Origin: Myxococcus stipitatus
Lineage (GTDB): Bacteria > Myxococcota > Myxococcia > Myxococcales > Myxococcaceae
DNA: 64,000 nt
Assembly: GCF_037414475.1 (NCBI RefSeq)
Contig: NZ_CP147913.1
Location: 9,372,501-9,436,500, forward strand
Reading direction: 5' to 3'
The notes under the pieces were generated by a model. The model did no database searches. It was not told the origin of the DNA and saw nothing but the letters and a program-made list of their open reading frames with translations. The position numbers and the translations under genes were made by a program. Shown one piece after another: positions 18,888 to 27,223 of this stretch. Each line of letters begins with the position of its first letter. The first letter of the stretch is position 1.

Positions 18888-21800
18888 ATGACCCATCCAC
18901 GCCCTCAGGACCTCCGCGTCGCGCGCAGTGTCACCCGTGCGGTGGAACCCCGCACCGAAACCGAGCGCGCCGTCGCGCTCATCTGGAGTGAGGTGCTGAA
19001 TGTTCCCGGGGTGGGAGTGCTCGACGGTCTGCTCGAGCTTGGGGGCCGCTCGTTGATGCACGCGCAGGTGCTCGCGCGCATCCGGAGCGTGTTCCGGGTG
19101 GAGCTGTCGCCCCAGGAGCTCGGCGAGCTGGAGACGGTGGCGGCCATCGCGGGGCGCATCGATGTGTTGGTCGCGCAGCGGCTCCGGGAGCTGCAGGGGA
19201 CCGCGGTGCATTCACCCGATTCTCGGCTGTCCGAACTCTTACTTGCCACGGAGATGGCGCGGCGTCCGGGACAGGGGGCGTGGAATGAACCGCCGCGAGT
19301 GTCGCGCGTGGACGTGTGCGCGCACACGCTGGTGGAGGCGCAGGCGGCGAGGACCCCCGATGCGGTGGCGGTGGTCTGTGAGGGGCGGGAGCTGACGTAC
19401 GCGCAGTTGGAGCGGCGGGCCCGTCAGCTTGCGGGGCACCTGCGGACCGCGGGCGTGGGCGTGGGGGAGCGGGTGGGGGTGTTCATGGAGCGCTCACTGG
19501 AGCAACTGGTGGCGCTCCTGGCGATTCTCAAGGCGGGCGCGGCCTATGTGGCGCTCGACACGCGGTACCCGGCGGAGCGGCTGGGGTACATGGTGGAGGA
19601 TTCGAAGTTGGCGAGGGTGCTGACGCGAAGCAATCAGTGTGACTCGCTGCCGGGGCCGGCGCGAGCGCTGGCGCTCCGCGTGGACTCGCTCTGGGCCGAG
19701 GAGCCTGGACCGCCGGAGCGTGTGCCTCCCGCGCGCGTGCCGCCGGAGAGCGCGTGCTACGTCGTGTACACGTCGGGGAGCACCGGCAAGCCGAAGGGCG
19801 TGGTGCTGTCTCACCGGGCGTTGTGCAACCTGTTGATGTGGCAGCGGGGGCACTCGGTGAAGGCGGAGGCGACGACGTTGCAGTTCGCGCCGCTGAGCTT
19901 CGACGTGTCGTTCCAGGAGATCTTCTCGACGTGGTGCGCGGGTGGACGGCTGGTGGTTCCGTCCGCGGCGCTCCGGCAGGACATGCCCGCGCTGCTCGCC
20001 TTCATGGCGGACCACCAGGTGGAGCGGTTGTTTCTTCCCTTCGTGGCCCTGCAAGCGATGGCGGACGCGGTGGTGCATGGGGCACGTGTCCCAGCGAGCT
20101 TGAAGGAGGTCATCACCGCGGGAGAGCAGTTGCAGGTGACGCCCTCGGTGGTGTCGTTCTTCGAGAAGCTTCCGGGGTGTGTGCTCGAGAACCAGTACGG
20201 CCCTTCGGAGACGCATGTGGTGAGTGCGTACCGGATGAAGGGCCCCCCCGCTGCGTGGCCCCGGCTGCCCCCCATTGGCGCGCCGCTGCCCGACGTGACG
20301 CTGCGGGTGCTGGATGCGAACGGATGGCCGTGCCCCGTGGGCGTCTCGGGCGAGCTGTTCATCGGGGGCGTGCAGCTCGCCCTGGGATATCTCGGACGGG
20401 CGGAGCTGACCGCGGAGCGCTTCGTTCCGGATGCGTCGGCGAGAGCCCCCGGAGAGCGGCTCTATCGGACGGGGGACCGGGCCCGGTGGAACGCGGACGG
20501 GGTGGTGGAGTTCCTGGGGCGGTGGGATGAGCAGGTGAAGGTGCGGGGCTTCCGGGTGGAGCTGGGCGAAGTCGAGGCCGCGCTCCGGGAGCTGCCCGGG
20601 GTCCGCGACGCCGCGGCGGCGGTGCATGAGGACGGGCCTGGAGACAAGCGGCTGGTGGGGTACGTGGTGCAGGAGGCGGGAGCCGCGTGGGAGCCCCTGG
20701 CGCTGAGAGAGGCCCTGGCGCGACGGCTTCCGGAGCACGAGGTTCCCTCGGTGCTGATGAAGCTGAAGACACTGCCGCTGACGCCCAGCGGAAAACTGGC
20801 GCGAGGAAGGCTGCCACCGCCGGACGCGGCCAGCGTGCGGGGCTCGGCGCCCTTCGTCGCGCCCCGGGACGCGCTGGAGACGCGGCTGGCGGACGTGTTC
20901 GCCTCGGTGCTGAAGCTCAAGCGCGTGAGTGTCATGGACAGCTTCTTCGCGCTGGGCGGCCACTCGTTGCTCGCGACGCTGGTGGTCTCTCGCATCCGCA
21001 AATCGCTCCAGGCGGACGTCCATCTCACGACGCTCTTCGAGGCCCCGTCCGTCGCGGCGCTCGCCAGCCGCATCGCGGGCTCATCGCTCGCGCCTCAGGC
21101 CATCCCGCCTCCCTTGGTGAAGGCGCCTCGCGGCGTGCCCGTGCCGCTGTCCTATTCACAGGAGCGGCTGTGGGGGCTGTTCAAGGCGAACCCCACCTCC
21201 ACGGCCTACAACCAGCCTTCGGCCTACCGCCTCAAGGGCGCACTGAAGCTGGACGCCCTGCGGGCCGCGGTCCAGGCGCTGGTGGAGCGCCATGAATCCC
21301 TGCGCACCACCTTCCTGGAAGTGGACGGACGTCCCGTCCAGCGCGTCGCTCCGTCGCTGCGCGTGGAGCTCCCGCTGGAAGACCTGCGGGGCAGGGGGGA
21401 TGCGGAAGCGGTGCTGGCCCGGCGCATCGACGACGACGCGCGCCAGCCCTTCGACCTCACCGAGGGGCCACTCGTCCGAGGCTCCGTGATTCGCCTGACC
21501 GAGGATGAACACGTCTTCATCTTCAGCAAGCATCACATCGTCACCGACGGCTGGTCGGAGGGGCTCATCACCCACGAGGTGGTGCGCTGCTACTCGGCCT
21601 TCGCCCGGGGCGAGACGCCCGCGCTTCCTCCGCTCGACATCCAATACCCGGACCACGCCGCGTGGCAGCGCCGGTGGCTGTCGGGCCGCGAGCTGGATGC
21701 CCGGCTGGATTACTGGCGCTCGGCCCTGGCGGATGCACCCAAGCTGTTGGACCTCCCCACCGACAAGCCGCGCCCGCCCACGCGCACGTTCAACGGGACC

Positions 21801-26122: not shown

Positions 26123-27223
26123 TCAGCTCCCGGTGGCGCGGCGGATATCCCGGAGAGAGGACGGCTCGGGCTCGCGGAGCACGGAGTAAGGGTCCAGCGC
26201 GTCCCCGCCGACCGTCTCCAGTCCCACGGAGGTGCCCAGCCCCAGCCGCTCCGCGTGGCGCAGCAGCAGCGCGGTGACGACCTGGTCCTCCAGCGCATAG
26301 CCGGTGGAGTCGAACACCGTCGCGCGCTGCCGCCACGGCTCGTACACGTCCGGGTTCTTCACCAGCGTGACCAGGTCCGGGCCCACCTGCTCGGGGCGGA
26401 TCTGCTGGCACTCGCCCTCCACCAGCGCCTGGGCGAGGAAGTCCGGGCACACGAGGCTGCGCTCCAGGAACGCCTTGGGCAGCTCCGTCTTGCCGGGCAG
26501 GTCCGAGCCCACCGCGTTGATGTGGACATGTGGCTTGAGCGACTGGCCCGAGATGACGGGGCCACCACCGACGACGACCGACGTCGCCGTGCAGATGATG
26601 TCCGAGCGCTCCTCCAGCTCCGCGAGCGACACGGGCTTCACGTCGAGCCCCAGGAACGCGGTCCGGCGCGACAGCGACTGCCGGGCCTCCTCGTTCGTGT
26701 CGAAGGCGAGCACCTCCGTGAGCGGGAAGACGCGGCTGATGGCGTGCAGCTGCGTCACCGCCTGGGCCCCACAGCCCACCAGCCCCAGCACGCGGCTGTC
26801 GGGTGAGGCCAGACAGCGCGTGGCCACCGCGGAGGCCGCGCCCGTGCGCAGCGCCGTGGCGAACACCCCGTCCATCAGGGCCAGGAGGTGCCCGGTCCTC
26901 ACGTCGTAGAGGCTGTTCGTCGCGATGATGGTGGGCAGCCCCTGTTCCTCGGGGTTGAGCGGGCTGTAGCTCACCATCTTCACCGTGACGGAGTCGCCTC
27001 GCCGCATCACCGGCATCCACTCCAGACACCCCGTCTGACGGGGGTGCTCCAGGAGGAAGCCATCCCGCTTGCGCACCTCCGTGAGGTCTCCGTCGAACGA
27101 GCGCAGCGCGTCCGTCAAGTCACGGATGAGCTCGTCCATGAGCGCGTCCGCGCCCACCTCCTCCACGATGCGGCGAAGGTCGGACCGAGTCACCAACAGC
27201 GTTCGTGTCGCGTCACTCTTCAA
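26123..27223 (-). CDS. Ornithine cyclodeaminase/mu-crystallin family enzyme
   Basis: This NAD-dependent family includes ornithine cyclodeaminase (ornithine to proline plus ammonia), alanine dehydrogenases, ketimine reductases and SbnB-type synthases. Visible are the lysine motif VTVKMVSYSP, the LALMDGVFATALRTGA segment, the Rossmann motif LGLVGCGAQA and AVGSDLPGKTEL, which carries the catalytic aspartate of ornithine cyclodeaminases. The frame stays open to a GTG at 27328, but that part is AT-rich and lacks family similarity, so TTG 27223 (366 residues) is preferred. It converges on the proline-type NRPS operon, so it may supply proline or reduce an imine intermediate. Confidence 0.85.
   Translation of the reverse strand: MKSDATRTLLVTRSDLRRIVEEVGADALMDELIRDLTDALRSFDGDLTEVRKRDGFLLEHPRQTGCLEWMPVMRRGDSVTVKMVSYSPLNPEEQGLPTIIATNSLYDVRTGHLLALMDGVFATALRTGAASAVATRCLASPDSRVLGLVGCGAQAVTQLHAISRVFPLTEVLAFDTNEEARQSLSRRTAFLGLDVKPVSLAELEERSDIICTATSVVVGGGPVISGQSLKPHVHINAVGSDLPGKTELPKAFLERSLVCPDFLAQALVEGECQQIRPEQVGPDLVTLVKNPDVYEPWRQRATVFDSTGYALEDQVVTALLLRHAERLGLGTSVGLETVGGDALDPYSVLREPEPSSLRDIRRATGS

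Follow-up and report, generated by a model that had tools for sequence, protein, structure and literature searches.

A ketomemicin-type enzyme cassette behind a nonribosomal peptide synthetase in Myxococcus stipitatus, a probable source of proline-capped ketomethylene pseudopeptides

What does a nonribosomal peptide synthetase (NRPS) make when the genes that follow it encode an alpha-oxoamine synthase and three enzymes expected to prepare an acyl-CoA? The question is raised by five plus-strand genes in a stretch of 64,000 nucleotides from Myxococcus stipitatus (RefSeq assembly GCF_037414475.1, contig NZ_CP147913.1, positions 9,372,501 to 9,436,500), referred to here in its full length as the window. 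An NRPS with the domain order thiolation-adenylation-thiolation-condensation (T-A-T-C) is followed there by a cassette of an alpha-oxoamine synthase (AOS), a CitE-like aldolase, a MaoC-like dehydratase and an MDR reductase (Table 1). An earlier note, made from the DNA alone, had called this operon an orphan and knew no pathway with such a gene set; the cassette in fact matches four genes of ketomemicin (ktm) biosynthesis. We consider it probable that the operon makes a proline-capped ketomethylene pseudopeptide, using a ktm-type cassette together with an NRPS whose terminal C domain is specialised. The five genes, and the homologue of ornithine cyclodeaminase (OCD family) that faces them, are real and lie where they had first been placed. 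The NRPS and AOS genes are separated by 6 nt and the MaoC and MDR genes by 4 nt, the AOS/CitE and CitE/MaoC pairs each overlap by 4 nt, and the OCD-family gene on the minus strand is convergent with the MDR gene, tail to tail. Inspection of other myxobacteria, which the note had proposed, found all five genes in the same order in three sister genomes (L036-L038), and the operon is not a chance arrangement, because this order is kept and dN/dS is far below 1. As the start of the NRPS, the ATG at 18888 is preferable, since the frame of a possible GTG extension (18789) carries breaking indels in the same three close relatives.

The identification of the cassette rests on its surroundings in other bacteria. 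Beside homologues of its AOS, CitE and MaoC genes (the triad), Streptomyces orinoci encodes a PGM1-type PreATP-grasp ligase and a Mycobacterium another ATP-grasp protein, and it was because of these neighbours, then matched to the literature, that ketomemicin biosynthesis was recognised as the relevant comparison. The account of that pathway lists ktmA (aldolase), ktmB (PLP-dependent C-acyltransferase), ktmC (dehydratase), ktmD (ATP-grasp ligase), ktmE (amidinotransferase) and ktmF (dehydrogenase), reports ktm clusters from Micromonospora, Streptomyces mobaraensis and Salinispora, with Micromonospora sp. ATCC 39149 among the strains whose cluster was expressed, gives Actinomycetota as the source of homologues outside Salinispora, and describes ketomemicins and arphamenines as the sole known natural ketomethylene pseudopeptides (PMC11943689). 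At the locus of Micromonospora sp. ATCC 39149 (L147), a PGM1/PreATP-grasp ligase is followed by MDR, CitE, AOS and MaoC homologues, and homologues of ktmA, ktmB and ktmC are neighbours both there and in the window. The window proteins are 49% (AOS), 44% (CitE), 58% (MaoC) and, over 242 columns, 36% (MDR) identical to those of L147, whose aligned parts have the same best NCBIfam models. The aldolase, PLP-dependent C-acyltransferase and dehydratase families, with a probable counterpart of the dehydrogenase, stand side by side in both systems. In an AOS tree, one group (support 100) unites the window and L147 proteins and excludes three more distant AOS-fold proteins that this genome also encodes; the tree carries long-branch warnings and has rows without the triad scattered through it, and it is no proof of function.

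The individual enzymes were also compared with family models and solved structures. The AOS belongs to the NCBIfam subfamily PRK07505 (501 bits against a cut-off of 342), and its PLP lysine, Lys254, as well as Asp219 and His221, are invariant in an alignment of eight sequences. Its nearest solved structures, at 310-312 bits, are 8xha and three others named 8-amino-7-oxononanoate synthase or aminotransferase, and the remaining AOS entries among solved structures reach at most 111 bits; a scan of viral contigs found no relatives. The MDR protein matches a PIG3-type model (356 bits against 296.8). For the CitE and MaoC proteins the best NCBIfam models are RipC and RipB, known from itaconate degradation, and the nearest solved structures are 3qll, named citrate lyase, and 8hgn, a beta-methylmalyl-CoA dehydratase. 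The RipC and RipB models and the 3qll match would fit an itaconate-type pair that prepares citramalyl-, mesaconyl- or itaconyl-CoA from pyruvate and acetyl-CoA, so that the product would bear a small methyl or methylene branch and not an aromatic one. Both scores, however, lie below the equivalog cut-offs (270 against 375 bits for RipC, 248 against 340 for RipB), as do those of the aligned parts of the Micromonospora ktm-locus proteins; CitE relatives in this genome are confined to its two cassettes, and the context in the window is an AOS and an NRPS. An itaconate-type donor therefore appears improbable to us.

The order of steps that we propose for the pseudopeptide is modelled on ketomemicin enzymology, which reportedly proceeds through benzylmalyl-, benzylfumaryl- and benzylsuccinyl-CoA. 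The CitE-like aldolase would join a phenylpyruvate-like 2-oxo acid to acetyl-CoA, giving a substituted malyl-CoA, which the MaoC protein would dehydrate; reduction of the double bond by the MDR protein would yield a 2-substituted succinyl-CoA. The AOS could then carry out a decarboxylative Claisen condensation of the succinyl thioester with an amino acid, forming a CO-CH2 pseudodipeptide. The NRPS would load proline on its second T domain (T2), and the terminal C domain would pass it from the T2 thioester to the pseudodipeptide's free amine and release Pro-Xaa-psi[COCH2]-Yaa. Judged from the proteins encoded, the most likely product is Pro-Xaa-psi[COCH2]-(Phe/Tyr-like), a protease-resistant peptide mimic in which a ketone replaces one peptide bond. 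The sequences themselves establish the gene content, the homology to four ktm genes, the separate C-domain clade, the Pro pocket, the C-domain loss and the selection; from these we infer in which direction and on which substrates each enzyme acts, what Xaa and Yaa are, and that proteases might be inhibited. The logic of the earlier note, in which an acyl-CoA prepared by the CitE, MaoC and reductase proteins is turned into an aminoketone by the AOS and this is then acylated with proline by the NRPS, is supported by this comparison and by the adenylation code and pocket match described below.

In both systems a predicted ketomethylene pseudodipeptide would be N-acylated by an amino acid, but the capping differs: the ktm pathway, described as NRPS-independent, completes its product with an ATP-grasp ligase and an amidinotransferase (PMC11943689), whereas in the window the ligase would be replaced by an NRPS that ends in a special C domain. 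The PreATP-grasp family (PF18604) has no match in this genome and two in the Micromonospora genome, which served as a positive control; other ATP-grasp types were not searched. The amidinotransferase family of ktmE was seen neither among the 18 window proteins scanned nor in a Pfam scan of L147, the whole genome not having been searched. To judge from the proteins of its cassette, the operon is probably of the ketomethylene-forming kind; it does not qualify as a complete ktm cluster, since no PreATP-grasp ligase was found in the genome. The operon had been proposed as a source of something new unless it matched a characterised cluster; such a match exists for the cassette and none was found for the NRPS. 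It is the combination of known parts that is new, a ktm-type building-block cassette with a myxobacterial NRPS, and the open-access literature, outside which most subscription journals lie, yielded no NRPS-coupled or myxobacterial ketomethylene peptide. The arphamenines A and B of Chromobacterium violaceum are ketomethylene pseudopeptides, as is the product predicted here, and we take them to be free pseudodipeptides without a proline cap. Two Chromobacterium AOS loci were found (L146, L151), with proteins of the same subfamily and neither CitE nor MaoC beside them; at L146 the gene is flanked by those of a thiolase and an MFS transporter.

How far does the cassette extend beyond this genome? 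Of 195 Myxococcota genomes, 66 have an AOS match at E<=1e-30 and 42 at 1e-110 or better; 40 loci that we selected from these matches were mapped, and CitE is present at 29 and MaoC at 29 of them. The 80 AOS loci that were kept, the best of 197 relatives in the genome collection, span Myxococcus, Corallococcus, Archangium, Streptomyces, Micromonospora, Salinispora, Mycobacterium, Pseudomonas, Dyella and others, and the triad lies within 4 kb at 65 of the 80, with an MDR gene at 47 and an OCD-family gene at 14. Two gene orders recur, AOS-CitE-MaoC-MDR, as in the window, and CitE-AOS-MaoC-MDR, a second type that is also found at ~1.2987-1.3128 Mb of this same genome (G000; L035, L185).

The terminal C domain of the NRPS (~21141-22427), which adjoins the cassette, gives a second view of the association, and the C domain in this place is the one that relatives conserve well. 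Eighteen cassette-adjacent terminal C domains are 62-86% identical to it, compared with 26-46% for 28 other C domains on the same strand and 41-49% for 30 C domains of its own genome, these being the best Pfam scorers of 111 and not including a second clade member at ~1.31 Mb. In a tree built from matches of at least 380 residues without stops, with one copy per identical sequence, all 18 cassette-adjacent terminal domains and four of six opposite-strand C domains, near Archangium and Corallococcus cassettes, form one clade (SH-aLRT 99) that leaves out the 30 own-genome domains, the 28 others at the same loci and two opposite-strand domains of Pyxidicoccus fallax. A follow-up prediction extended this to the second-type cassettes: the terminal C domain lies in the clade at 8 of 8 such loci (55-56% identity, support 100) and all ten internal C domains, nine at second-type loci and one in L118, lie outside it, in a tree of 53 rows made of a subset chosen by us and the new loci. 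When the eight best candidates of each of the 195 genomes were scored, C domains of the clade kind (E<=1e-138) were present in 31 of the 42 genomes whose AOS match reaches 1e-110 or better, and in none of the 153 others; 39 of the 44 such domains, three of which hold an in-frame TGA, lie within ~12.5 kb of an AOS match. Six genomes were followed in depth: identity stays at or below 50% in two without AOS and in G122 and G136, whose cassette stands alone, and reaches 56-58% in two with the second-type cluster. The clade goes with the cassette at the level of the genome, not always side by side, and we infer from its sequence relationships that the terminal C domain is specialised for a ketomethylene acceptor. 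The second-type cassette of this genome is adjoined by genes for a FabA-like protein, a ketosynthase, an AMP-ligase and an NRPS of the order T-C-A-T-C, the final C domain of which belongs to the same clade; its product is perhaps an acylated ketomethylene lipopeptide. A second-type cassette also occurs at L118 (BNCN01000003.1), titled Comamonas sp. KCTC 72670, whose C domain is identical to one from the genus Myxococcus (G126/L188), so that the entry looks mislabelled.

The amino acid that the NRPS would contribute can be read from its A domain. Its specificity code is DVQFIAQVVK, which reads Pro. In the PDB, the only sequences that a 118-residue pocket segment of the domain matches at 1e-8 are those of tyrocidine synthase 2 (TycB) and gramicidin S synthase 2 (GrsB), both of which use proline in their first module. 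Close relatives also have the Pro code, and other relatives carry DAFWLGGTFK directly before the terminal C domain; a published table assigns DAFWLGGTFK to Val and DVQFVAQVVK, a code related to that of the window, to Pro (PMC9113097). The peptide part is thus variable among relatives (Pro, Val and Gly-like codes), and a Val code in that position parallels the ketomemicins, one of which resembles Val-Leu-Phe (PMC11943689).

The T-A-T-C order, assigned by Pfam, is common to four species (the window and L036-L038), and both T serine motifs, the A motifs and the C-domain HHxxxDG can be read in the translation. The NRPS that precedes the AOS varies, with T-C-A-T-C-A-T-C in M. qinghaiensis, T-C-A-T-C in M. 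dinghuensis and longer lines in Myxococcus sp. RHSTA-1-4 and Pyxidicoccus fallax. Compared with M. qinghaiensis, the sister locus L038 is colinear in its first T domain (T1) and A, and most of a ~430-residue C domain is missing between them; the last ~30 C-domain residues remain in L038 as a deletion scar, of which the window has lost more. The T-A-T-C order is therefore the result of an in-frame loss of the C domain between T1 and A. Such a broken line might be a decaying remnant beside a cassette that works alone and releases a free pseudodipeptide like arphamenine, and the NRPS does evolve faster than the cassette (dN/dS 0.24-0.27 against 0.07-0.14, window versus L036-L038). A cassette of the order AOS-CitE-MaoC-MDR also occurs with no NRPS in the stretch fetched at L044, L049 and L058 (kinase and DUF genes lie near L044), where a free, arphamenine-like pseudodipeptide is a possible product. 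Decay nevertheless has little probability in our view: the four species share the architecture, the frame is open and, because dN/dS by domain is 0.16-0.32 (T1 0.22-0.32, A 0.16-0.21, T2 0.25-0.32, C 0.28-0.31; the linker is at 0.60-0.80), the shortened NRPS is still under purifying selection.

The same loss bears on the final form of the product. It is conceivable, though we think it less likely than not, that the myxobacterial hybrid lines are a family with ketomethylene pseudodipeptide end units and a C clade of their own, and that here the loss of the C domain removed N-terminal acylation, leaving a free prolyl aminoketone that closes to a new pyrrolo[1,2-a]pyrazinone with a carboxyalkyl side chain. 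The product might possibly take this bicyclic form because a free N-terminal proline would give a dipeptidyl ketone, a class whose closure to a pyrazinone is proposed to be spontaneous in the description of coralinone biosynthesis (corA, Corallococcus exiguus; PMC10979478). Coralinone would thus be a myxobacterial counterpart of the cyclised variant, except that, as its pathway is described, the ketone comes from a polyketide synthase (PKS) module within one NRPS/PKS gene, and here it would come from the AOS. A product that is simply a nannozinone-like pyrazinone was also considered and demoted, as the coralinone pathway makes its ketone by PKS (PMC10979478); cyclisation was kept as a variant. 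If it does occur, the loss of one domain would have converted a protease-inhibitor scaffold from linear to bicyclic.

Several observations weigh against a proline-capped pseudopeptide made in this way. The MDR protein, although adjacent and of the same PIG3 model as its ktmF counterpart, has only the modest similarity to it given above. Fifteen of the 80 AOS loci lack the full triad, of which six hold part of it or an MDR gene and nine have no CitE, MaoC, MDR or OCD gene, and AOS of the same subfamily occur in other contexts, as in Chromobacterium beside a thiolase. The Myxococcota genomes are related, so that counts among them are not independent and a Fisher test of the link between C domain and AOS exaggerates its strength. 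Eleven of the 42 AOS-bearing genomes are without the special C domain, and at least two of these (G122, G136) hold all four cassette genes. Conversely, five of the 44 clade-kind C domains (G073, G074, G082, G084, G133) lie on contigs without an AOS match, and the 7.5 to 31 kb fetched around them contain no AOS, CitE, MaoC or MDR homologue. All five are the terminal C domains of their NRPSs, and those at L193 (G084), L195 (G082), L196 (G073) and L197 (G074) are 56-59% identical to that of the window. All five genomes carry an AOS elsewhere, and broken assembly explains one case at most. The contig of G082 measures just 7.5 kb, and in the draft G133 the second AOS lies on a small contig, but the G084 contig exceeds 1 Mb. 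These NRPSs may use a pseudodipeptide made from afar or accept another amine. Over its full length, the A domain scores highest against the Gly-specific module at residues 1228-1733 of linear gramicidin synthase subunit A (588 bits), with tyrocidine synthase 2 at 383 bits; the Pro reading comes from the pocket and not from whole-domain similarity. Finally, T1 (~18930-19190) is kept and selected without a partner C domain and has no role in the model.

The OCD-family gene is outside the operon and patchy in relatives. A role in making proline from ornithine for the A domain would suit a gene that is adjacent and convergent and that is present, by our count among related loci, at 6 of 8 with a Pro code and 2 of 9 with only Val or Gly-like codes. 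Its protein, however, scores 175 bits against an NCBIfam ornithine cyclodeaminase cut-off of 350, and the link to Pro codes is weak, the gene being absent at the Pro-code loci L036 and L051 and present at L046 and L047 with only Val or Gly-like codes; we consider its participation unlikely. OCD-family genes that accompany triads in Pseudomonas and other genera hint at another role, but the two such proteins measured share only ~30% identity with that of the window. At L131 and other Pseudomonas loci the triad is accompanied by an OCD-family gene, and at L131 also by 2-hydroxyacid dehydrogenase, aminotransferase and MFS genes, a gene content that suggests a different pathway with the same cassette. 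The Citreicoccus-type loci L052 and L061 (G073, G074) have an AOS (61% identity) and an MDR gene only, with no CitE or MaoC.

If the pseudopeptide prediction is correct, NRPS-coupled ketomethylene peptides would be common across the Myxococcaceae, frequently with two in one genome; their peptide part would vary, as the Pro, Val and Gly-like codes indicate, and their ketomethylene end would stay constant. The C clade would serve as a search hook in a route from genome to molecule for protease-inhibitor-like compounds, and the shortened and longer lines would constitute a natural series of module loss for study.

Table 1. Genes of the operon and the facing gene, in window coordinates
Feature	Coordinates	Strand	Basis
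NRPS, T-A-T-C	18888..22466	+	Pfam domains, A code, C-domain trees, deletion scar, dN/dS
Alpha-oxoamine synthase (AOS), KtmB-type, PRK07505 subfamily	22473..23687	+	NCBIfam, homology to L147
CitE-like aldolase/lyase, KtmA-type	23684..24601	+	Pfam HpcH_HpaI, homology to L147
MaoC-like dehydratase/hydratase, KtmC-type	24598..25125	+	Pfam/NCBIfam, homology to L147
MDR reductase (PIG3 model), in place of KtmF	25130..26110	+	Pfam/NCBIfam, homology to L147
Ornithine cyclodeaminase/mu-crystallin (OCD) family, accessory	26123..27223	-	Pfam

Elsewhere in the window, the minus strand at 6337-15614 encodes by Pfam a C-A-T-reductase NRPS, an AMP-ligase, a chorismate-binding enzyme and an SDR protein, a cluster that we take to be of the myxochelin siderophore type. 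At 28216-30297 lies an aspartate 4-decarboxylase whose N-terminus is extended by ~150 residues; the gene after it encodes a type II asparaginase.

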